DNA from: Deltaproteobacteria bacterium
GTDB taxonomy: Bacteria; UBA10199; JACPAL01; JACOUP01
Assembly: GCA_016177765.1 (NCBI GenBank)
Contig: JACOUP010000008.1
Location: 705,165-769,164 of the forward strand
Reading direction: 5' to 3'
DNA: 64,000 nt
Program-made: the position numbers and the translations under genes
Shown: in pieces, positions 15,105-51,491 of the stretch
Numbering within the stretch: position 1 is the stretch's first letter
Layout of the letters: the number at the start of each line of letters is the position of its first letter
Notes under the pieces: model-generated
The model's input: only the letters and a program-made list of their open reading frames with translations
The model's database searches: none
What the model was told of the DNA's origin: nothing

Positions 15105-18100
15105 TTAGGGAATAACCTTTGGAAGAAGGCTCCTTTCAGTCACAGGCCATGTCGCTGGGAGTGGTAGTGCGGGATCTCCCCTCCCCTCCATCATCCGATC
15201 AATAACTGCTTCCCTCAACCCCACAGGGGACTCCGAAGGGGGGAGAGGATAGCCACCCCTTTCCAAGAGGGCCTCTAATCCCGGCTGGGCCGTTAGTGAA
15301 TTACCATCTGGGGAATTAAGGGCCGCCGTTGGGATGGAAGGGGTCAAACCGCGAGGAGGCGTCGGCCCCCCTTTATTCGGCACCGGCAGTTCACGGCGCC
15401 CGAGGTTCGCCCCATGACTCATCAAATTTTCACTCACCGTTATTTCCAAGGCAAAACGCCGGACAAAATCATCGGCCTCAGGAACCGTTGCAAAGGGGGT
15501 TCCGATAAAGGCGGGGATTCCGTGAGCCCCACGCACAGGAAGATTACGAACCGTCTCCCGCAACACCGCCGTCCCCTCCTCCGGTGTCCCGTCATAGGCG
15601 ACAAAACCCAAACGGGGGTGCATGGCCAGTTGGGCCGCTGAACCGGCCGACGGCGCATGGAACTGGACCGGTAATCCAAACCTTCGGGCCGCATCGGCAA
15701 ACCACCGGGCCACCAGTCTGTCCCCTTTTTCTGTGGAGGTCAAAATCAGACTATTACCAACAGCCAAGGCCCCGGACAAAAGGGCCGCCAGTGATGGAAG
15801 TGGTGTATGGTCTGAACCGATGACAAGCCCAACCCCCCTTGGACGGTACCTCAACTCTGTCCTTTCACCGGGATTGAAAGAGGTCGGTTGGGGTTCGACA
15901 AGCCGCGCGGCACTAACAGTCATCTGCCGGATCACCGTTGCCGCACCGACGGCCTCTTCTTGGGCATCGAGATAGCCGATCCCATACTCCGTCGCGAGCA
16001 ACGCCACCAGTTCATCCTCATGCCCGGCAACATAGGCGGCCAAACGATTCAGCGAATTTTCTCTTGTCTCCCATCGGAACTCTGCCGCTTGGCTTATCTC
16101 AGCCCTTTCAATGATCCCATTAAAATCAGGGGAAACATCCGTTACAAGGCGTCGCCTTAAACTGTCCGACCTCTGGGCCAGCTCAACTGGGATCATTGTG
16201 TTAGAGGTATAGGACCGCTTTGCCCTTTCTGGGCGCCTCTCCGGACGGACACGCATGAAAGGGGTCAGGGAGTCTGGCCCGCCTGCCTTGGGACCGGTTC
16301 CGGACATCCCAAAACCACCGAACGGTTCAATGCCAACGCGGGCACCAGTAATCCTTCTGTTAATGTAGAGGTTGCCGGCCCTCGCCTCGACCGTGAAACG
16401 CCGGATCTCACGCGGGTTGCGTGAGTAGAGCCCTGCTGTGAGGCCGAACTCTGTATCATTTAACAAACGGAGCGCCTCGTCAAAATCGCTAAACGTCAGG
16501 ACAGAGGCGATAGGGCCAAACATCTCCTCTCGGAGAACAGGATCAGAAGGTGGCGGCTGGACAATAAGCGTGGGGGAAACATAGGCACCGTTCCCCTCCA
16601 TTGGTCCTCCATGACTGTAAAATTCTGCGGTGTCTCTCAGTCTCTCCCGGGCCGGACCTAACTGATTCTCATCGATGGTGCGTCTTGCCCGCTCATCGAT
16701 CAACGGCGGCACCTCTGTTCCGGAGTCAAAGGGGTCTCCAACCTTCAGGCTCCGGAGCGCTGGCACAACCCGTGCCATGAACTCGGCGTAACGGTCCTCG
16801 TGGATAATCACGACTGAACAGGCGGAACATTTCTGCCCGGCATGACCGGTCATCGATTGAACAAAACCCCGCACGGCATCATCCATATCGGCATCCTTGC
16901 TGATGATGATCCCGTTTCGTCCCCCCATCTCGGTCACCGCCCGACGACTGCTCCCAAAGGAAGGGAGGTACGGCTGGGTGACCGCCCTCTCATAAAGACT
17001 CAAACCAACCGCTTTAGAACCGGTAAAGGCGGTTGAGGTCACGCGAGGGTCATTGACCAACAGCTCTCCCAGATCCCCCGCCCCAAAAACCAGATTGACC
17101 AGTCCCGGTGGAAAACCGGCCTCTCTCATTAGTCCCACAAATTCTGCCGCGATGATTGGTGCGGTGGAGCGTTCCGACGGCTTCCAGACAGCCGCATTCC
17201 CGGCGGCTACTTCTTGAAGAGTCATCCCGAGACCGATCGAGGCAAAATTCCATGGGGAGATGACCGCCCCGACCCCCCCTCCTCTGTAAATATCGGTATC
17301 GACCTCCATCAGGAGACGGGCATACCATTCGGCAAAGTCAATCGCCTCGGCGATATCGGCATCCGCCTCACGCCGGATCTTTCCGGAGGTCATCACCAGG
17401 GCGGTCAGTCGATTACGGTCCCGCCTCAGGAGTCTTGCGAAACCGAGAATCACCTCGGCCCGTGTCATGGGGGGTGTTCTGTTCCACCCGGTGGCCGCCG
17501 CGGCCGCCATAGTAATGGCATGATTGACAACCTCAGGGGTTGAATCAGGAACTGAACCGATCTCTTTTTGACGGGCAGAGGCCACCACCCGCTCAAACTC
17601 TTCCCTGACAGAGGCTTGACGAAAATCGAGGAGCGGTTCCGGTCGGAAGGGTCCAAACGGACCGTCGGCAAAGGGTGCTTCACCCAAGGGTGATTCACCC
17701 AAAGGTTGATTGACCCCTTGAGAAGCGGCGGCGAGGGCGGCAACCTCAGTTGGGGAACGGAGCAGGATTTCAGGATCTGGTCTCGAACGCCGGCTCTGGA
17801 CAAAACCTGAGTTTGAGCTGTTTTCCAAAACCCTCCTCACAAAATAGGCCATGCCGGGGATCAGTGGGCCGACCGGGGTATAAAACCGGCCGTTGTATCC
17901 CCTCCCCTCGACCGCGGCTCGCAAGATATCCCCTTCCATCCCGGCCAACATTTCAAAATCGATCGCCTCTTTGGGGACCCCCAACCTTTCAGCAATCGCC
18001 ATCCCCCTGGCAAGGCTCCGAACATTGTGGCTCCCAAGATCGGGACGCAAGAAACGCCAATTGGCAATCAGACGTCTCGCAAGATGCTCCCAGTTGGCAT

Positions 18101-33000: not shown

Positions 33001-33878
33001 TGCCCCAAGATGACGCTAAAAGAGGCCCCTCTCGGGTGACTGGCTGTTCCCTTTAGGGTCCAGGCGATCAGGAAACGCCCGTTCTTGTAGGCCGCAACCG
33101 GTTCCCGGTTTTCCTGGCAGTCGGTCGGGTTGGTGAGGCCGAACTCCTCGGTAAACCGGTCGTAGAGACAACCGTGGGTGGGGCGTTCGACACTGATCCT
33201 CCTTCGAGAGACCCGTTCTGCAACGCCGTCCCGATCGACCAGCTTGGCGTAGACATCCTGCCTCCCGGCCCGGCCTTCCTCACTCCAAACGATCAGATAG
33301 TGATGCCTGTCCGGATCATAGGCGACATCCGGCTCACTCCCCCCGGACGCCACAGAAACAGGGTTCGTTGCGACCCCCGTCAGGAATAGGGGATGATCCC
33401 AGATATCATTAAAAATCTTGTCACAGGCGAAACAGCGGAAAGAGGGGAAGAGCCGGCGAAAGTCGTGCTGGATCAGCAGTTTGTCATCAATCCCCTCGTA
33501 CGGCTTAAAAACCCCCTTCTTCCAGAGCGAAGAGAGCCTCTTCTCACTCATCCCCCACCGGAGGGAAGCGGCCTTGAGCCATTGGGGATCCAGGGCCTTT
33601 TTCCCTTCCAACGACCCCTTTCTTCGCAAAATCCCGACCTCGGCCTCCTGGACCCCACCCGTGGGTGAACCACCCTTGGGTGAATCACCCTTGGAAACTG
33701 CCGTGCGCTGGCCACTTCCCCCTTTTTGGAAAATCACCGTCGTCGGTTGAAAGGGGGAGGCGAGGGTTACCGTCTTTTGCGGCCCCCGGTTGGAAAAGAA
33801 TCTTTTTTCATCATCAGAACAGCCAAGAAGGGTCAGCCCCAAGAGGATCAGAAAAAAGATTTTGGATAAATTTCTCAT
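30009..33878 (-). CDS. Large lipoprotein with propeller-like, PKD/Ig, FN3 and LamG domains
   Basis: A 1289-aa outer-surface lipoprotein. MRNLSKIFFLILLGLTLLGC gives the lipobox LLGC. After a linker that includes two 15-nt units (KGDSPKGGSP, residues 63-72), residues about 160-640 hold repeated VAYDPDRHHYLIVW / VAYKNGRFLIAWT strands typical of beta propellers; 660-1000 carry three Ig/PKD-like domains (SSDPENGTTDLVYHWEA, SSTDPEGTPLRYIW, ISDPDDPQP); about 1000-1090 is fibronectin-III-like (ETTYFWQVEARKVGGG); about 1095-1280 is a LamG/concanavalin fold (WWRFDEGPGFFMLGDASGHG, GALWFDGVDDRI). It looks like an adhesin or polysaccharide-binding surface protein. It is inserted, with the next gene, between mnmG and mnmE. 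Confidence 0.8.
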   Translation of the reverse strand: MRNLSKIFFLILLGLTLLGCSDDEKRFFSNRGPQKTVTLASPFQPTTVIFQKGGSGQRTAVSKGDSPKGGSPTGGVQEAEVGILRRKGSLEGKKALDPQWLKAASLRWGMSEKRLSSLWKKGVFKPYEGIDDKLLIQHDFRRLFPSFRCFACDKIFNDIWDHPLFLTGVATNPVSVASGGSEPDVAYDPDRHHYLIVWSEEGRAGRQDVYAKLVDRDGVAERVSRRRISVERPTHGCLYDRFTEEFGLTNPTDCQENREPVAAYKNGRFLIAWTLKGTASHPRGASFSVILGQMVEAETLEPVNTNWTEGRLLSKIQLFSNQDGVRPRNDDEIMSWSSHEKPHVIALNNADAFFTVWQTNKDTISCVDSDRWLSRSVYGRVIDFDFGPGRSRNNPNKDLIRIYSDSSNNPDDDSHPEYRDHCVPRADVVTTTNPRVAFNPDINKLLVVFESRVQSVEARLAIAGQVFGLSGSLDPQTFNPWNATPIDSTDSGNSNNPDVVALDDRFVVANDQDKSALMLQTVRYSPAGLVRVGTPALHRVCDGELDGRGLCPEDQISVASRPRLLVSAKNDSEELIVSYEKRSHVGDTAAVIEASALNGNLDFIERPVSLAAPDRTINIHQELAPGENRFVAVWFAKGDGRGDVFSSLAEIVATPVNERPTARIETVPSGITEVRPRERVNLSGGRSSDPENGTTDLVYHWEAISDLPVTFSRNNTMETFFVAPSLECSQGETECEAPIEIRLTVTDLNGLPSEPASVTIRVKQSVLPNQSPIARLQVSTINVSETQPDGSRTRVTLDAGSSTDPEGTPLRYIWTPEDPSQLSNIDDRGSTYSFLVPDVHYQSPQEPEVIHIQLVVSDGELSSTPVEATVTVDFVNRPPVVDLGPDREVNEGEEVILIADISDPDDPQPVPFASWEQVSGPPVSIINFEGGRQIWFTAPSVAMDTPLEFEISVLDEGLLGATDRIQVLVKDRINAPVSQRPADGVVLSPTRVLLQWDEVEEEGVDYTVFFEPVNPPMRPVGGCENIGRTYCVVDNLAPETTYFWQVEARKVGGGRAVSSSFRVVTDNSVAGWWRFDEGPGFFMLGDASGHGNNGALMGEDGPPLWQPGLIGGALWFDGVDDRISLLSHNGFPLAREERGVFLWISWEGPDDDRCTFSSPFWYGSASPGSANAIDIKRDSGALRIISVVDDTALTPVGISRATWNQVGFTYDGTLVRIYINGEEVWSEEKSWDTLWSEGEFGRRFSDCYFRGLIDEAVVYSRSISPEAIRSNYCVVQIQSDAGPLPPLCQ
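33663..33690. repeat. 15-nt palindromic unit, 2 copies, in the large lipoprotein
   Basis: GGGTGAACCACCC and GGGTGAATCACCC joined by TT, preceded by a half unit CACCC. Read on the minus strand as KGDSPKGGSP. Confidence 0.8.
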
Positions 33879-36153: not shown

Positions 36154-37590
36154 TTATTTTCCAATACAGAAACGGGCGAAGATCTCCCCCAGGATCTCGT
36201 CATTGGTGATTTCCCCGGTAATTTCAGAGAGATGGTTGGTCGCGATGAGGAGATCGGCCGCCAGGAATTCCAGCGACATCCGGGCCTGAACAGCCTCTTC
36301 CACCCTTTCCAGGCCGACAAGCGCCTTTTGCAAACAGTCCTTGTGGCGGCTGTTGGTCAGGAGAATCTCTGACGAGGTCATCGAGGGAGAACCGATCAAC
36401 CGCCCATAAAGGAGTCCCTTGAGCTCCTCGATCCCTTCATGATTTTTGGCGGAGATTGATAGGACCGGTGTGAGGGGAGGGGGGACTGGGGAAGGGGAGA
36501 GGTCTTTTTTGTTAAAAATCACCAGCGGTTTTTTATCCGCGATCTTTTCATACAGGGCAACATCTTCGGAACCAAATGGGACACTGGCATCCACAAGAAA
36601 CAAAATCAGATCGGCCGACCGGACCTGTTGCCAACTCCGGCGGATCCCTTCGGATTCGACAGGGTCATTCACGATGGACGGGTCCTGTCTCGGGTTCCGC
36701 CCAGCCGTGCTCACCCGTTCCGCTCGGCTGGGCGCCCGACCCTCGCCACCCGTCCCATGAATCCCCGCTGTATCCACAAGCCGGACCGGCAAGCCTCTCA
36801 GGTTGATCGTCTCTTCAATCAGGTCACGCGTAGTTCCGGGGGTTACATGAACAATCGCCCGATCCTCTTGCAACAAGGCATTGAGCAGGCTTGATTTTCC
36901 GACGTTCGGCCGGCCACAGATGACCACCCGGACCCCCTCCCGAAATTTTCTCCCTTCTTCATAACTGGAGAGAAGGGTCCGGATCCGTCTTTTCAAATCC
37001 TTAAGCCGCCCCTGAATTTCTTCGGAGTAAAGCCCGTGAACATCCTCATCCTCCGGAAAATCGATCATCGCCTCGATCTGGGCCCGGAGGACGCTCATAT
37101 CATTCCGCAATTTACCAACAACCAGGGAAAGGGCCCCGGAGAGTTGACGAGCCGCCAGTTCTGCCGATTTTTCAGTCTCACTTTCAATCAGGTCCGCCAC
37201 TGCCTCGGCCTGGGTCAGATCCAGCTTACCGTTTAAAAACGCCCGTTGGGTGAATTCCCCCGGTTCGGCCGGCCGGGCCCCCTCTTTGAAGAGTACCGCC
37301 AGAATCGATTGGAGAAGAACCGGGCTCCCATGGCAGTGAAATTCAACGACATCCTCACCGGTGTAGGAATGGGGGGCCTTCATCACCACGGCGAGGACTG
37401 TATCTGAAAAAATCTGGCCGGTGACCAGCTGCCGGGGCAGAATTTTGGAAAGTTTTTGGGAAGATTGCCAGACAGTGTCCGCGATAGAAATGGCTTTTTC
37501 CCCGGAAACCCTCAAAATCCCGATCCCGCCAAACCCTGGGGGGGTCGCAATAGCGGCGATGGTGTCGTCGAGGCTATTCTTCAAAGGCAT
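36154..37590 (-). CDS. mnmE: tRNA modification GTPase MnmE with an inserted segment
   Basis: A 478-aa GTPase that pairs with MnmG for U34 modification. The N-terminal domain has the formyl-THF-binding fold ([20 protein letters not shown]); the GTPase has G1 [16 protein letters not shown]2 TPGTTRD, G3 DTAG, G4 NKKD; the C-terminal FCIGK holds the invariant Cys. About 27 extra residues (279-305, Gly/Arg-rich) follow the DTAG motif; they are encoded by the 80-bp element found also in the Rsm22-type gene. This is the switch II region, so the insert must be tolerated by a mobile loop. Confidence 0.95.
36676..36755. mobile_element. 80-bp palindromic element, copy 1 (inside mnmE)
   Basis: The element has terminal inverted repeats GGACGGGT...ACCCGTCC and, inside, a perfect 10-bp stem CGCCCAGCCG/CGGCTGGGCG on the coding strand. 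It differs from copy 2 (50448-50527) by a single base. It adds 80 bp, plus one neighbouring base to keep the frame, to the mnmE GTPase domain. No protein is encoded by it in its own right; its origin is unknown. Confidence 0.85.
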
Positions 37591-49216: not shown

Positions 49217-50176
49217 ATGGCTAACCCACCTGAAATATTTAGGATTTCTGCCTCCGAGGCCGATCAAAGACTGGACCGGTACCTTGTCCAGAAACTCTCC
49301 CTTTCCAGAAAAAGGGTCAAGGCGCTCCTGGACCGTGGGAAGATTTTTATCAACGGTCACAAGGTGGTGATCGCCTCCTGGGAGGTCAATCAGGGTGATA
49401 AACTTCAGGTTTTTTCAGAAAGGTCCGAGGAAGATCCTTCCCAGACCAAGCCCCAATTTTTGAAGGTCGCTTATGAGGACTCGGACCTTCTCATTGTGGA
49501 AAAAGATGCCGGGATCCCTTGTGAAAAATCGCCGGTTGCCTGGCGCCCCTCCATGGTGGCGATGGTCAATCAGTATTTAAAAAAGACCCACCCCCATCTT
49601 CCGGCCCACTATGTCGGACTGGTTCATCGTCTGGATACCGACACCTCCGGACTTCTTATTTATACCAAGACCAAAGAGGCGAACAAGATTACGGAGCAGT
49701 TTAAAAAACGAACGGTGGTGAGAAAATATTTGGCCCTTGTGGAGGGGAGGGTAGAGGGGGAGAAAAAAGTTTTGGAGGGGTACCTCGCTCAGGCCAATCT
49801 TCCCGGTGGTAAAAAGATAAAACTGGTTCCGAAGGGAAAGGGGAAGAGGGCGGTCACCACCTATACCGTTTTAGAGCGTTACGGGAAGGCAACACTTTTG
49901 GAGATTTCGATCAAGACCGGTCGGACCCATCAGATTCGTGTCCAGTTGGCAGCAATCCGGCATCCGATCCTGGGGGACCGGATCTACGGATCGACCGCTT
50001 CTCGTGATGGGTCGTCTTTCAAGCGTCAGGCGCTCCATGCCAACACCCTCTGTTTCCGTCATCCGGTGACCGGCAAAAAAATAGAGTTAATTTCTGAACC
50101 TCCCCGTGATTTTCGACGGCTTATCGATCGCCTGCGCGAAGGGTGGTCCACCCAAGGGCGATTCGCCCAGGGGTGA
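49217..50176 (+). CDS. rluD: RluD-family ribosomal large subunit pseudouridine synthase
   Basis: A 319-aa pseudouridine synthase. Residues 12-80 are an S4 RNA-binding domain (QRLDRYLVQKLSLSRKRVKALL); the catalytic Asp is in HRLDTDTSGLLIYTKT; TGRTHQIRVQLAAIRHPILGD is the second signature. The specific uridine cannot be told. The C-terminal 12 residues (GWSTQGRFAQG) come from the 15-nt array; the first two units carry TGG and CGA where the consensus has TGA, and the third unit's TGA is the stop codon. Confidence 0.92.
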   Translation: MANPPEIFRISASEADQRLDRYLVQKLSLSRKRVKALLDRGKIFINGHKVVIASWEVNQGDKLQVFSERSEEDPSQTKPQFLKVAYEDSDLLIVEKDAGIPCEKSPVAWRPSMVAMVNQYLKKTHPHLPAHYVGLVHRLDTDTSGLLIYTKTKEANKITEQFKKRTVVRKYLALVEGRVEGEKKVLEGYLAQANLPGGKKIKLVPKGKGKRAVTTYTVLERYGKATLLEISIKTGRTHQIRVQLAAIRHPILGDRIYGSTASRDGSSFKRQALHANTLCFRHPVTGKKIELISEPPRDFRRLIDRLREGWSTQGRFAQG

Positions 50177-50226
50177 TTCACCCAAGGGTGAGCCACACAA
50201 TGGTGTGTCACCCAGGGGCGCTAGCT
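50141..50226. repeat. 15-nt palindromic array, 6 units, at convergent gene ends
   Basis: Unit starts at 50141, 50156, 50171, 50186, 50201 and 50216 are exactly 15 nt apart: GGGTGGTCCACCC, GGGCGATTCGCCC, GGGTGATTCACCC, GGGTGAGCCACAC, TGGTGTGTCACCC and a partial GGGCGC. The first two show compensated stem changes. The array gives the stop codon of rluD and holds the stop of the convergent Rsm22-type gene. Confidence 0.92.
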
Positions 50227-51432
50227 GATAATTTTTAGGGGTGTCTCTTTCTCGACCCTTTTGATCGCCTCCATCTCAACAATATAACCCCTTTTAAGAC
50301 GATCGAATGGCGTATTCATTGGAGAACGATCGCGATCAAGTCTTTCGGTGTGGAGGAGCTGACCGGATTTTGCCGACTCCTCCCCGCACAAGACAACCTC
50401 CGATTTGCCGTTGGATCTCATCAGCGAAGAAACAACACGCCAACTTGGGACGGGTCCTGTCTCGGGTTCCGCCCAGCCGTGCTCACCCGTTCCGCTCGGC
50501 CGGGCGCCCGACCCTCGCCACCCGTCCCTGTCTGATCCTGCTAGAATCAAATACGAGCATTTTAAATAATCCTTTCGAATGCCAATCCTCTGGTCAAACT
50601 CCTCGATCATCTCTGTCGGTTCCCATTCAATGTAGGTATGGCACCAATCGCGCCGATTTTCTTTGAGCATCGGGCAGAGCCGCTGGTGTGTGCAGGGGGC
50701 AATGGTTATCGGGATATTTTGAGGGTTCTCACTACTGAGGAGGGCATCGTGGAGTTCCATCAATTCGAGTGTTGTCTTTCGGAGGGCCGGTTCTACAATA
50801 AGAATCTTTCCTTGGGGGGTGAGGTGATGATTGAGGAGCCGGATCAGCATGTTCCGGCGTTTCTCCGGATGGAATATCTCATTCAAGGTATTGACCATCA
50901 AGATCAAGTCATACCGGTCGTGGTGCAGAAAAGCGGGCAGGGGTTCTCTTTCGAGATCGGTTTTGACACTACGGAACTTGGAGGGGAGGGGAAAATGGGG
51001 TGAAAGTTTTTGGTGAAGGAGCCGTGCCTCTTCCAAAATGGCGCTATTCTGATCGACCGCGGTATAGTGAATGGAGGCTTTTGTAAAAAACAGAAGACTC
51101 CCTAGAAGCCCGGTGCCCGGCCCGCTCCCAAGGTCCAAAATTTTGATCGGTTCTTTTGTGTCTGGCCAACTGTCGGCTGGGGCCTGACGAAGGAGCGGCG
51201 GGATCTTGAGGGCGTTCACCAAAAGAAAATAGGCGATGTAGCCGGAACGCAGTTCTTTCTGATTAAAATAGTTTTTGGTGAGCGATCCCCTGTCGCTGGT
51301 GAACGACAGGCTGAGCTCAGCGACCCCTTTTTCAAAAAAACCGTAAGGAAAAGAGGGAGGCCTCTTCCCCTTGGCCGGGAAGTAGTAGCGTTCGATCAGA
51401 AAATCTTGAATGATTTTGTCGAGAGAGACCAT
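50221..51432 (-). CDS. Rsm22-family methyltransferase-like protein
   Basis: A 403-aa protein of the Rsm22/METTL17 family, which assists small-subunit assembly or methylates its rRNA. It has the SAM motif ILDLGSGPGTGLLGSLLFF (residues about 95-115), YDLILMVNTLNEI, and the C-terminal signature APCTHQRLCPML...DWCH with RKDYLKCSYLIL, whose cysteines bind iron-sulfur in relatives. ATG 51432 is used; a TTG at 51474 in frame is possible. Residues about 302-328 (Gly/Pro-rich) are encoded by the 80-bp element. Its stop lies in the 15-nt array. Confidence 0.85.
   Translation of the reverse strand: MVSLDKIIQDFLIERYYFPAKGKRPPSFPYGFFEKGVAELSLSFTSDRGSLTKNYFNQKELRSGYIAYFLLVNALKIPPLLRQAPADSWPDTKEPIKILDLGSGPGTGLLGSLLFFTKASIHYTAVDQNSAILEEARLLHQKLSPHFPLPSKFRSVKTDLEREPLPAFLHHDRYDLILMVNTLNEIFHPEKRRNMLIRLLNHHLTPQGKILIVEPALRKTTLELMELHDALLSSENPQNIPITIAPCTHQRLCPMLKENRRDWCHTYIEWEPTEMIEEFDQRIGIRKDYLKCSYLILAGSDRDGWRGSGARPSGTGEHGWAEPETGPVPSWRVVSSLMRSNGKSEVVLCGEESAKSGQLLHTERLDRDRSPMNTPFDRLKRGYIVEMEAIKRVEKETPLKIIS
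50448..50527. mobile_element. 80-bp palindromic element, copy 2 (inside Rsm22-type gene)
   Basis: This copy is identical to 36676-36755 except for one base, which turns a stem A-U pair into a G-U on the coding strand. Ends are GGACGGGT and ACCCGTCC. It is translated in a different frame from the mnmE copy, so the protein sequence is not what is conserved. Confidence 0.85.
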
Positions 51433-51491
51433 TTTTAGAAAGAGTTTATTTTTGACATTATCGGCCCTCACCAATAGCTATAGCACACTTT

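Follow-up and report, generated by a model that had tools for sequence, protein, structure and literature searches.

The window examined here, a 64,000-nucleotide stretch of a contig from a Deltaproteobacteria bacterium, contains a gene for the tRNA modification GTPase MnmE whose reading frame runs without interruption through a short palindromic element (Table 1). The product contains the Pfam domains TrmE_N, MnmE_helical and MMR_HSR1, and both the G-domain motifs and the C-terminal FCIGK motifs are kept. The element lies in the switch II region, between the DTAG motif and the E..GI.RS helix, and a second copy is present in the same window, within a gene for a SAM-dependent methyltransferase for which no NCBIfam match was found. 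The genome to which the window belongs (1.92 Mb, 96.5% complete) is indicated as G000; other genomes are given by G numbers and single loci by L numbers.

Table 1. Position of the host genes, of the element copies and of the structural parts of the copy in mnmE
Feature	Coordinates	Strand	Remarks
mnmE, tRNA modification GTPase	36154..37590	minus	478 aa, open across the insert; ORF list, Pfam, PDB chains
Palindromic element, 80 nt	36676..36755	minus	predicted to be translated in the mnmE sense as a 27-residue segment
Outer stem, arm a	36676..36683		copy-specific tetramer at 36676-36679
Outer stem, arm b	36748..36755		copy-specific tetramer at 36752-36755
72-nt core, GGGTGGC ... ACAGGACCC	36680..36751	minus	differs from the sister-copy consensus by 0-2 nt only
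Second stem, one arm	36692..36695		partner 36739..36742
Second stem, other arm	36739..36742		partner 36692..36695
Third (inner) stem, one arm	36699..36707
Third (inner) stem, other arm	36725..36733
Second window copy	50448..50527	minus	one difference; same orientation to the gene, other reading frame
Host of second copy, SAM-dependent methyltransferase	50221..51474	minus	Rsm22-like by reading

Comparison with the solved chains 1xzp, 3geh and 9hip revealed that the extra length of MnmE is exactly 27 residues, accounted for by the 80 nt of the element plus one additional base, and the same excess was found with respect to the MnmE proteins of four relatives; an earlier note on this DNA had proposed about 27 added residues with the frame kept by one base, and this estimate proved to be exact. 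The length of the loop between DTAG and the helix was readable in 25 of 27 relatives: it is the standard 8 residues in 22 of them, 10 in G013, 13 in G025 and 48 in G017, compared with 35 in the window protein, and all these lengths vary directly after DTAG-I-R. The same insertion in MnmE of distant bacteria, which the note had named as a refutation, was thus not observed among the relatives read. The note had called switch II critical for GTP hydrolysis and expected an unusual loop; that an insert at this point must be exceptional was not supported, given the range of 8 to 48 residues among relatives and the presence of an unrelated repeat in the loop of G017. The latter repeat (L041), which encodes the peptide GPELVEGVP, is to judge from its sequence an independent insertion into the same loop. 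The switch II segment of MnmE thus reads as a length-tolerant loop, which has been entered at least twice.

A segment of 27 residues adjoining switch II, which takes part in GTP hydrolysis, could be thought to inactivate the enzyme or to turn the gene into a pseudogene. This is improbable, as the whole frame and all the motifs are intact, the length of the loop differs among relatives, and similar inserts are found in HisF, TruA, FolC and PriA of the same genome, and in IleS, DnaX, HemB and TilS of relatives, not all of which are dispensable. Since the loop tolerates different lengths and the G-domain motifs are preserved, loss of function is not implied, and MnmE carrying the insert probably still works.

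The palindromic nature of the element is evident at several levels. Its terminal arms are complementary at 8 of 8 nt and its inner arms (36698-36710 and 36722-36734) at 92% over 13 nt; the perfect 8-nt ends and the perfect inner 10-bp part described in the earlier note were thus both recovered. The 80-mer has a folding energy of -46 to -48 kcal/mol, depending on the strand, while shuffled sequences have means of -30 to -34, and an equally stable fold was reached by only 0 and 1 of 200 shuffles. In relatives the second stem covaries, being found as CTCGGG/CCCGAG, CTGGGGG/CCCCCAG or CTTAAGG/CCTTAAG. Over 37 copies from four genomes, changes on both sides occur in 14 of 26 pairs and 93% of the cells are paired; none of 500 shuffles was as high, and pairing drops to 27-50% in the slid controls. 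A class-wide set of 81 copies gives both-side changes in 21 of 26 pairs, with 94% of cells paired, a count that leans towards the covariance model to which that alignment was fitted. Outer-stem cells are paired in 96% of cases across copies. The stems vary around two invariant motifs, GGGTGRC and, on the opposite side, RCAGGACCC, and an apical GCGC...GAGCAC motif is present in many copies.

One explanation for stem covariation is selection on a fold; another is that, as the DNA is replicated, one arm is corrected against the other through template switch. Intergenic orthologous copies in G019 and G042, which belong to the same genus, display paired substitutions and paired three-base indels on both arms (L135 versus L265 and L136 versus L269), so arm-by-arm correction could also explain the pattern, and the use of covariation as a proof of selection was dropped. 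The flanks of these orthologous copies are 92-97% identical. At one site, an orthologous pair from the two genomes contains different cores, of 80 and 104 nt. In an RluA-family gene of G003 (L251) a short, nearly perfect hairpin consists solely of the element's left arm followed by the same arm inverted, the kind of product expected from a template switch.

A genome-wide search in G000 for the 80-nt sequence returned 12 close copies with 93-100% identity, each at a different place, among them the one at 50448, which is 98.75% identical over 80 nt and had already been noticed. Two of the twelve (L011 and L012) carry an extra 15-nt hairpin, reaching a length of 95, and a second subfamily is represented by a single copy of 102 nt in priA. 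About 11 of the 13 copies are in frame within genes: besides MnmE and the methyltransferase, the hosts named by NCBIfam are an RluA-family pseudouridine synthase, TruA, 3,5-diaminohexanoate dehydrogenase, a GlcD-like FAD oxidase, squalene-hopene cyclase, HisF, FolC, gamma-glutamyltransferase and PriA. Of the remaining copies, one occupies the 3' end of a gene that by reading is MutT-like and one is apparently intergenic. The window also contains a 15-bp palindromic unit of the AAGGGTGATTCACCC type: GGGTGANNCACCC has 25 matches, with 0.11 expected, at about 16 sites, including 832-859, 17673-17700, 33663-33690, 44340, 44652, 50171 and 54473. These units form arrays with a 15-nt period, such as the one at 50139-50218, in which changes in one arm are matched by changes in its partner. 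The additional 15-nt hairpin of L011 and L012 looks like one unit of this type.

A repeat of about 80 nt in many copies could in principle have led the assembler to join separate contigs. The probability of such an artefact is practically negligible: at each genic site the two flanks belong to the same gene and are in frame, and independent assemblies share insertions, namely HisF in G000 and G001, and the pairs L135/L265 and L136/L269.

Analysis of reading frames was performed on 32 genic copies from G000, G001 and G003, a copy being counted as genic when an ORF spans it, which means that the frame statistic is partly conditioned on that choice. The used frame is open in all of them, with a product of odds of 8e-5, while in each copy three to five of the six frames are open and one to three closed; the script did not assign the used frame of L007. 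Copies without a spanning ORF are apparently intergenic or supply the final codons of a gene. The used frames cover all six combinations of frame and strand, in both orientations, thus no single encoded peptide is selected. Eroded copies of G003 in which the full hairpin is lost (L093, L096 and L097) remain within open genes. The half-elements of this genome (L093 and L095-L097) were also considered as possible ends of a larger transposon, an idea which was rejected, since they resemble eroded copies whose host genes are intact.

These data bear on the possibility of a tiny intron, or of a translational bypass of the byp/hop kind, in which the hairpin is cut out or skipped to give a normal protein. 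The very stable and covarying structure, the conserved loops and the location in essential, conserved enzymes are features that such an element would have; however, it is found in both orientations with respect to the gene, in which an intron would not work, the frame is always open and the length always frame-preserving, both needless if the sequence were removed, and the eroded copies without hairpin still lie in open genes. This explanation is very improbable, and removal of the hairpin by RNA processing is unlikely. The occurrence of both orientations, always with a stop-free frame, indicates on sequence grounds that the element is almost certainly read by the ribosome and tolerated, not spliced out.

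Related copies are abundant in G003, which belongs to the same order and to another family and has about 23 full copies, and two were found in G001. In G003 the host genes encode RsmE, IleS, an ArgE/DapE hydrolase, PurL, YggS, CcmF, IspE, HemB, AccC, DnaX, a YgfZ-like protein, QueG, CtaB and TilS, among others; in G017 copies lie within MutL and PolA, and in G019 within DnaE, where the element is in frame and absent from the orthologue of G042. In HisF the insertion is at the identical place in G000 and G001, which represent two genera. Using a covariance model built from the wider alignment, with a threshold of E <= 0.001, the family was detected in 22 of the 46 genomes that represent this uncultured class, which may be UBA10199 of GTDB, with a maximum of 23 matches in a single genome, and outside the class in 4 of 147 genomes of the domain (5 in G144, 9 in G176, 3 in G139 and 1 in G076); the copies of G144 share the fold and the fixed motifs of the family. 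Members are 74-130 nt long. They are mostly intergenic in G012, G009 and G019, and mostly genic in G000 and G003. Recent copies are found in G000, G003, G012, G017 and G019, and the sister genomes G002, G004, G007 and G024 are free of them.

An exact-pattern scan of GTDB contigs with the order-level motif gave no matches, and a scan with the motif of family f13 recovered mainly relatives, named 'Deltaproteobacteria bacterium' SJ577 and OFTM172. No match for the family was obtained in plasmids, nor for the exact motif in the viral collection. The gapped motif gave 8 viral matches; the others resemble chance occurrences, and the fold is present in L305 alone. This putative viral contig (IMGVR_UViG_3300036760_000384) contains all the fixed motifs and is a plausible family member. 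Searching the region against Rfam 15 retrieved no family, only weak matches to mammalian lncRNAs far below threshold, and the hairpin family is apparently unclassified.

The places occupied by the element are frequently used by other sequences. Indeed, orthologues that do not contain it often have a different repeat-encoded peptide in that position, as found for HemB (G005 and G004), AccC (several genomes), the ArgE/DapE hydrolase (G005), the dehydrogenase (G001) and MnmE (G017). From these comparisons, the loops hosting the element can be described as tolerant of inserts in general. At one position of a carotenoid-type membrane protein, G003 (L094) and G005 (L114/L193) contain two subfamilies of the element, and the protein of G000 (L300) has an unrelated palindrome at that position.

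The insert could alternatively be adaptive, tuning the GTPase cycling of MnmE or regulating its mRNA through the hairpin. The fact that two genera have retained the element at a single position of HisF is consistent with a function of this kind; conversely, the same DNA gives several different peptides in different genes, and in relatives the loops in question are taken up by unrelated repeats, a pattern more in keeping with tolerance than with a specific function. This possibility thus appears slight. The insertions mark loops that tolerate large inserts in MnmE, HemB, HisF, TruA, AccC and other enzymes, and because one DNA sequence is read in more than one frame and from either strand, loop tolerance can be told apart from selection for a peptide.

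A second aspect concerns the ends of the element. In G000 the outer tetramers are GGAC, GAGC, AGAC, CGAC, GGAT and CGGC, around 72-nt cores that are 0-2 bases off the consensus, and in 9 of 10 copies the exact complement of the tetramer is present at the opposite end. The fixed part ends with GGGT/ACCC and the outer 4 bp are variable; no direct duplication was noticed in the flanks that were read. In the 37 copies of the order, complementarity of the arms outside the core is 84-95% at positions 1-4, 70% at position 5, 46% at positions 6-7 and then near chance, the arm having the form NRRY. Complementary arms are longer elsewhere, extending over at least 16 positions in G019 and G042 and about 8 in G017. 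The outer four pairs differ between nearly identical cores yet stay complementary, indicating that the arms are set, or reset, around insertion.

With respect to orthologues, TruA has gained 72 nt, the RluA-family gene about 72, MnmE and HemB 81 each, and TilS about 93; between genes the net gain ranges from about 69 to 93 nt, and in DnaE it is about 141 nt, long arms included. A constant insertion length of 72 or 81 nt was rejected, since the value varies by gene. The idea that copies simply land in pre-existing long palindromes was also discarded: the empty DnaE gene of G042 lacks the whole stretch of about 141 nt, long arms included, so the long arms are not simply the old target.

Taken together, the insert is best described as a non-autonomous mobile hairpin, translated in frame and tolerated, which most likely leaves MnmE function in place and would be mobilised in trans; we assign to this reading a probability of roughly four in five. 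In the proposed mechanism, the 72-nt core GGGTGRC...RCAGGACCC would disperse, with complementary outer arms of at least 4 bp that differ copy by copy. A candidate trans-acting enzyme may recognise the folded strand and mobilise the element, and the arms could arise because the core lands in a palindrome or because one arm is copied from the other. Copies would land in genes in either orientation, and the survivors would be the frame-keeping insertions that place a flexible peptide, rich in Gly, Pro, Arg and Ser, into a tolerant loop. We infer that the mnmE mRNA is translated straight through the element, giving 27 residues in the variable loop after the G3 motif. A mobilising enzyme or an autonomous copy of the element was not found.

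The element could instead be a MITE of an ordinary known transposase, of the REP/RAYT, IS605-like or DDE type, with diverged ends. It is short, palindromic and multi-copy, with terminal inverted repeats in the form of perfect 8-bp ends, and Y1 transposases are present in G000, G004, G005 and G019. However, REP-type Y1 genes are absent from G003 (98% complete), which with about 23 copies has the most of its order, and from G001 (82% complete), which has 2 copies; nearly identical copies differ in their outer four pairs, and a copy with an internal gene was not found. An origin of this kind is rather unlikely. G000 has three Y1 transposase genes (C8:833546, C8:481451 and C3:20333), for which no link to the element was found, and Y1/RAYT was rejected as the mobiliser, as it does not track the copies. 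More tentatively, and with less than even chances, the element may belong to an undescribed superfamily extending beyond one class and defined by GGGTGRC...RCAGGACCC around covarying stems, whose mobility would depend on recognition of the folded strand and which would acquire copy-specific complementary arms at each insertion. To our knowledge, such arm-acquiring movement matches no known MITE, REP or IS. How the element moves can be put to the test, starting from the contrast between its invariant core and the complementary arms that differ from copy to copy.

Among known systems, structured RNAs in Rfam share with the element a conserved and covarying secondary structure, and none of their families was matched. 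REP sequences are similar in being dispersed hairpins, some at gene ends. They are described as 20-40 bp long and GTAG- or CGTC-tagged (PMC3733652); conversely, the element is 74-130 nt long and Y1 genes do not track its copies. YPAL and ERIC are MITE-like elements of enterobacteria, palindromic, about 100-170 bp long and known to give in-frame fusions. The targets of YPAL span or adjoin dyad symmetry (PMC2229807), a feature reminiscent of the complementary arms that surround the copies described here; however, YPAL and ERIC are mainly found between genes, and ERIC has TA termini.

A close counterpart is represented by the Rickettsia palindromic elements (RPE), short multi-copy palindromes found in frame in genes for conserved proteins and between genes (PMC2229807, PMC10969869); in the single case put to the test, a Rickettsia gmk gene with a palindromic insert is translated and its product is active (PMC2229807). 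The likeness, drawn from published descriptions, lies in the similar size, the multiple copies and the in-frame position in conserved genes, and by analogy the element may work as RPE do. RPE are about 100-150 bp long, and the copy in mnmE, at 80 nt, is shorter than most of them. Differently from RPE, it belongs to another bacterial group, has a fixed core with copy-specific complementary arms, uses both orientations and several frames, and displays, throughout a class, fixed motifs together with stems that covary; since arms and distribution differ, it is not filed as an RPE. The family would thus add to the natural experiment known from Rickettsia a second case on a larger scale, in which segments of 24-50 residues have been written into essential enzymes, apparently without breaking them.
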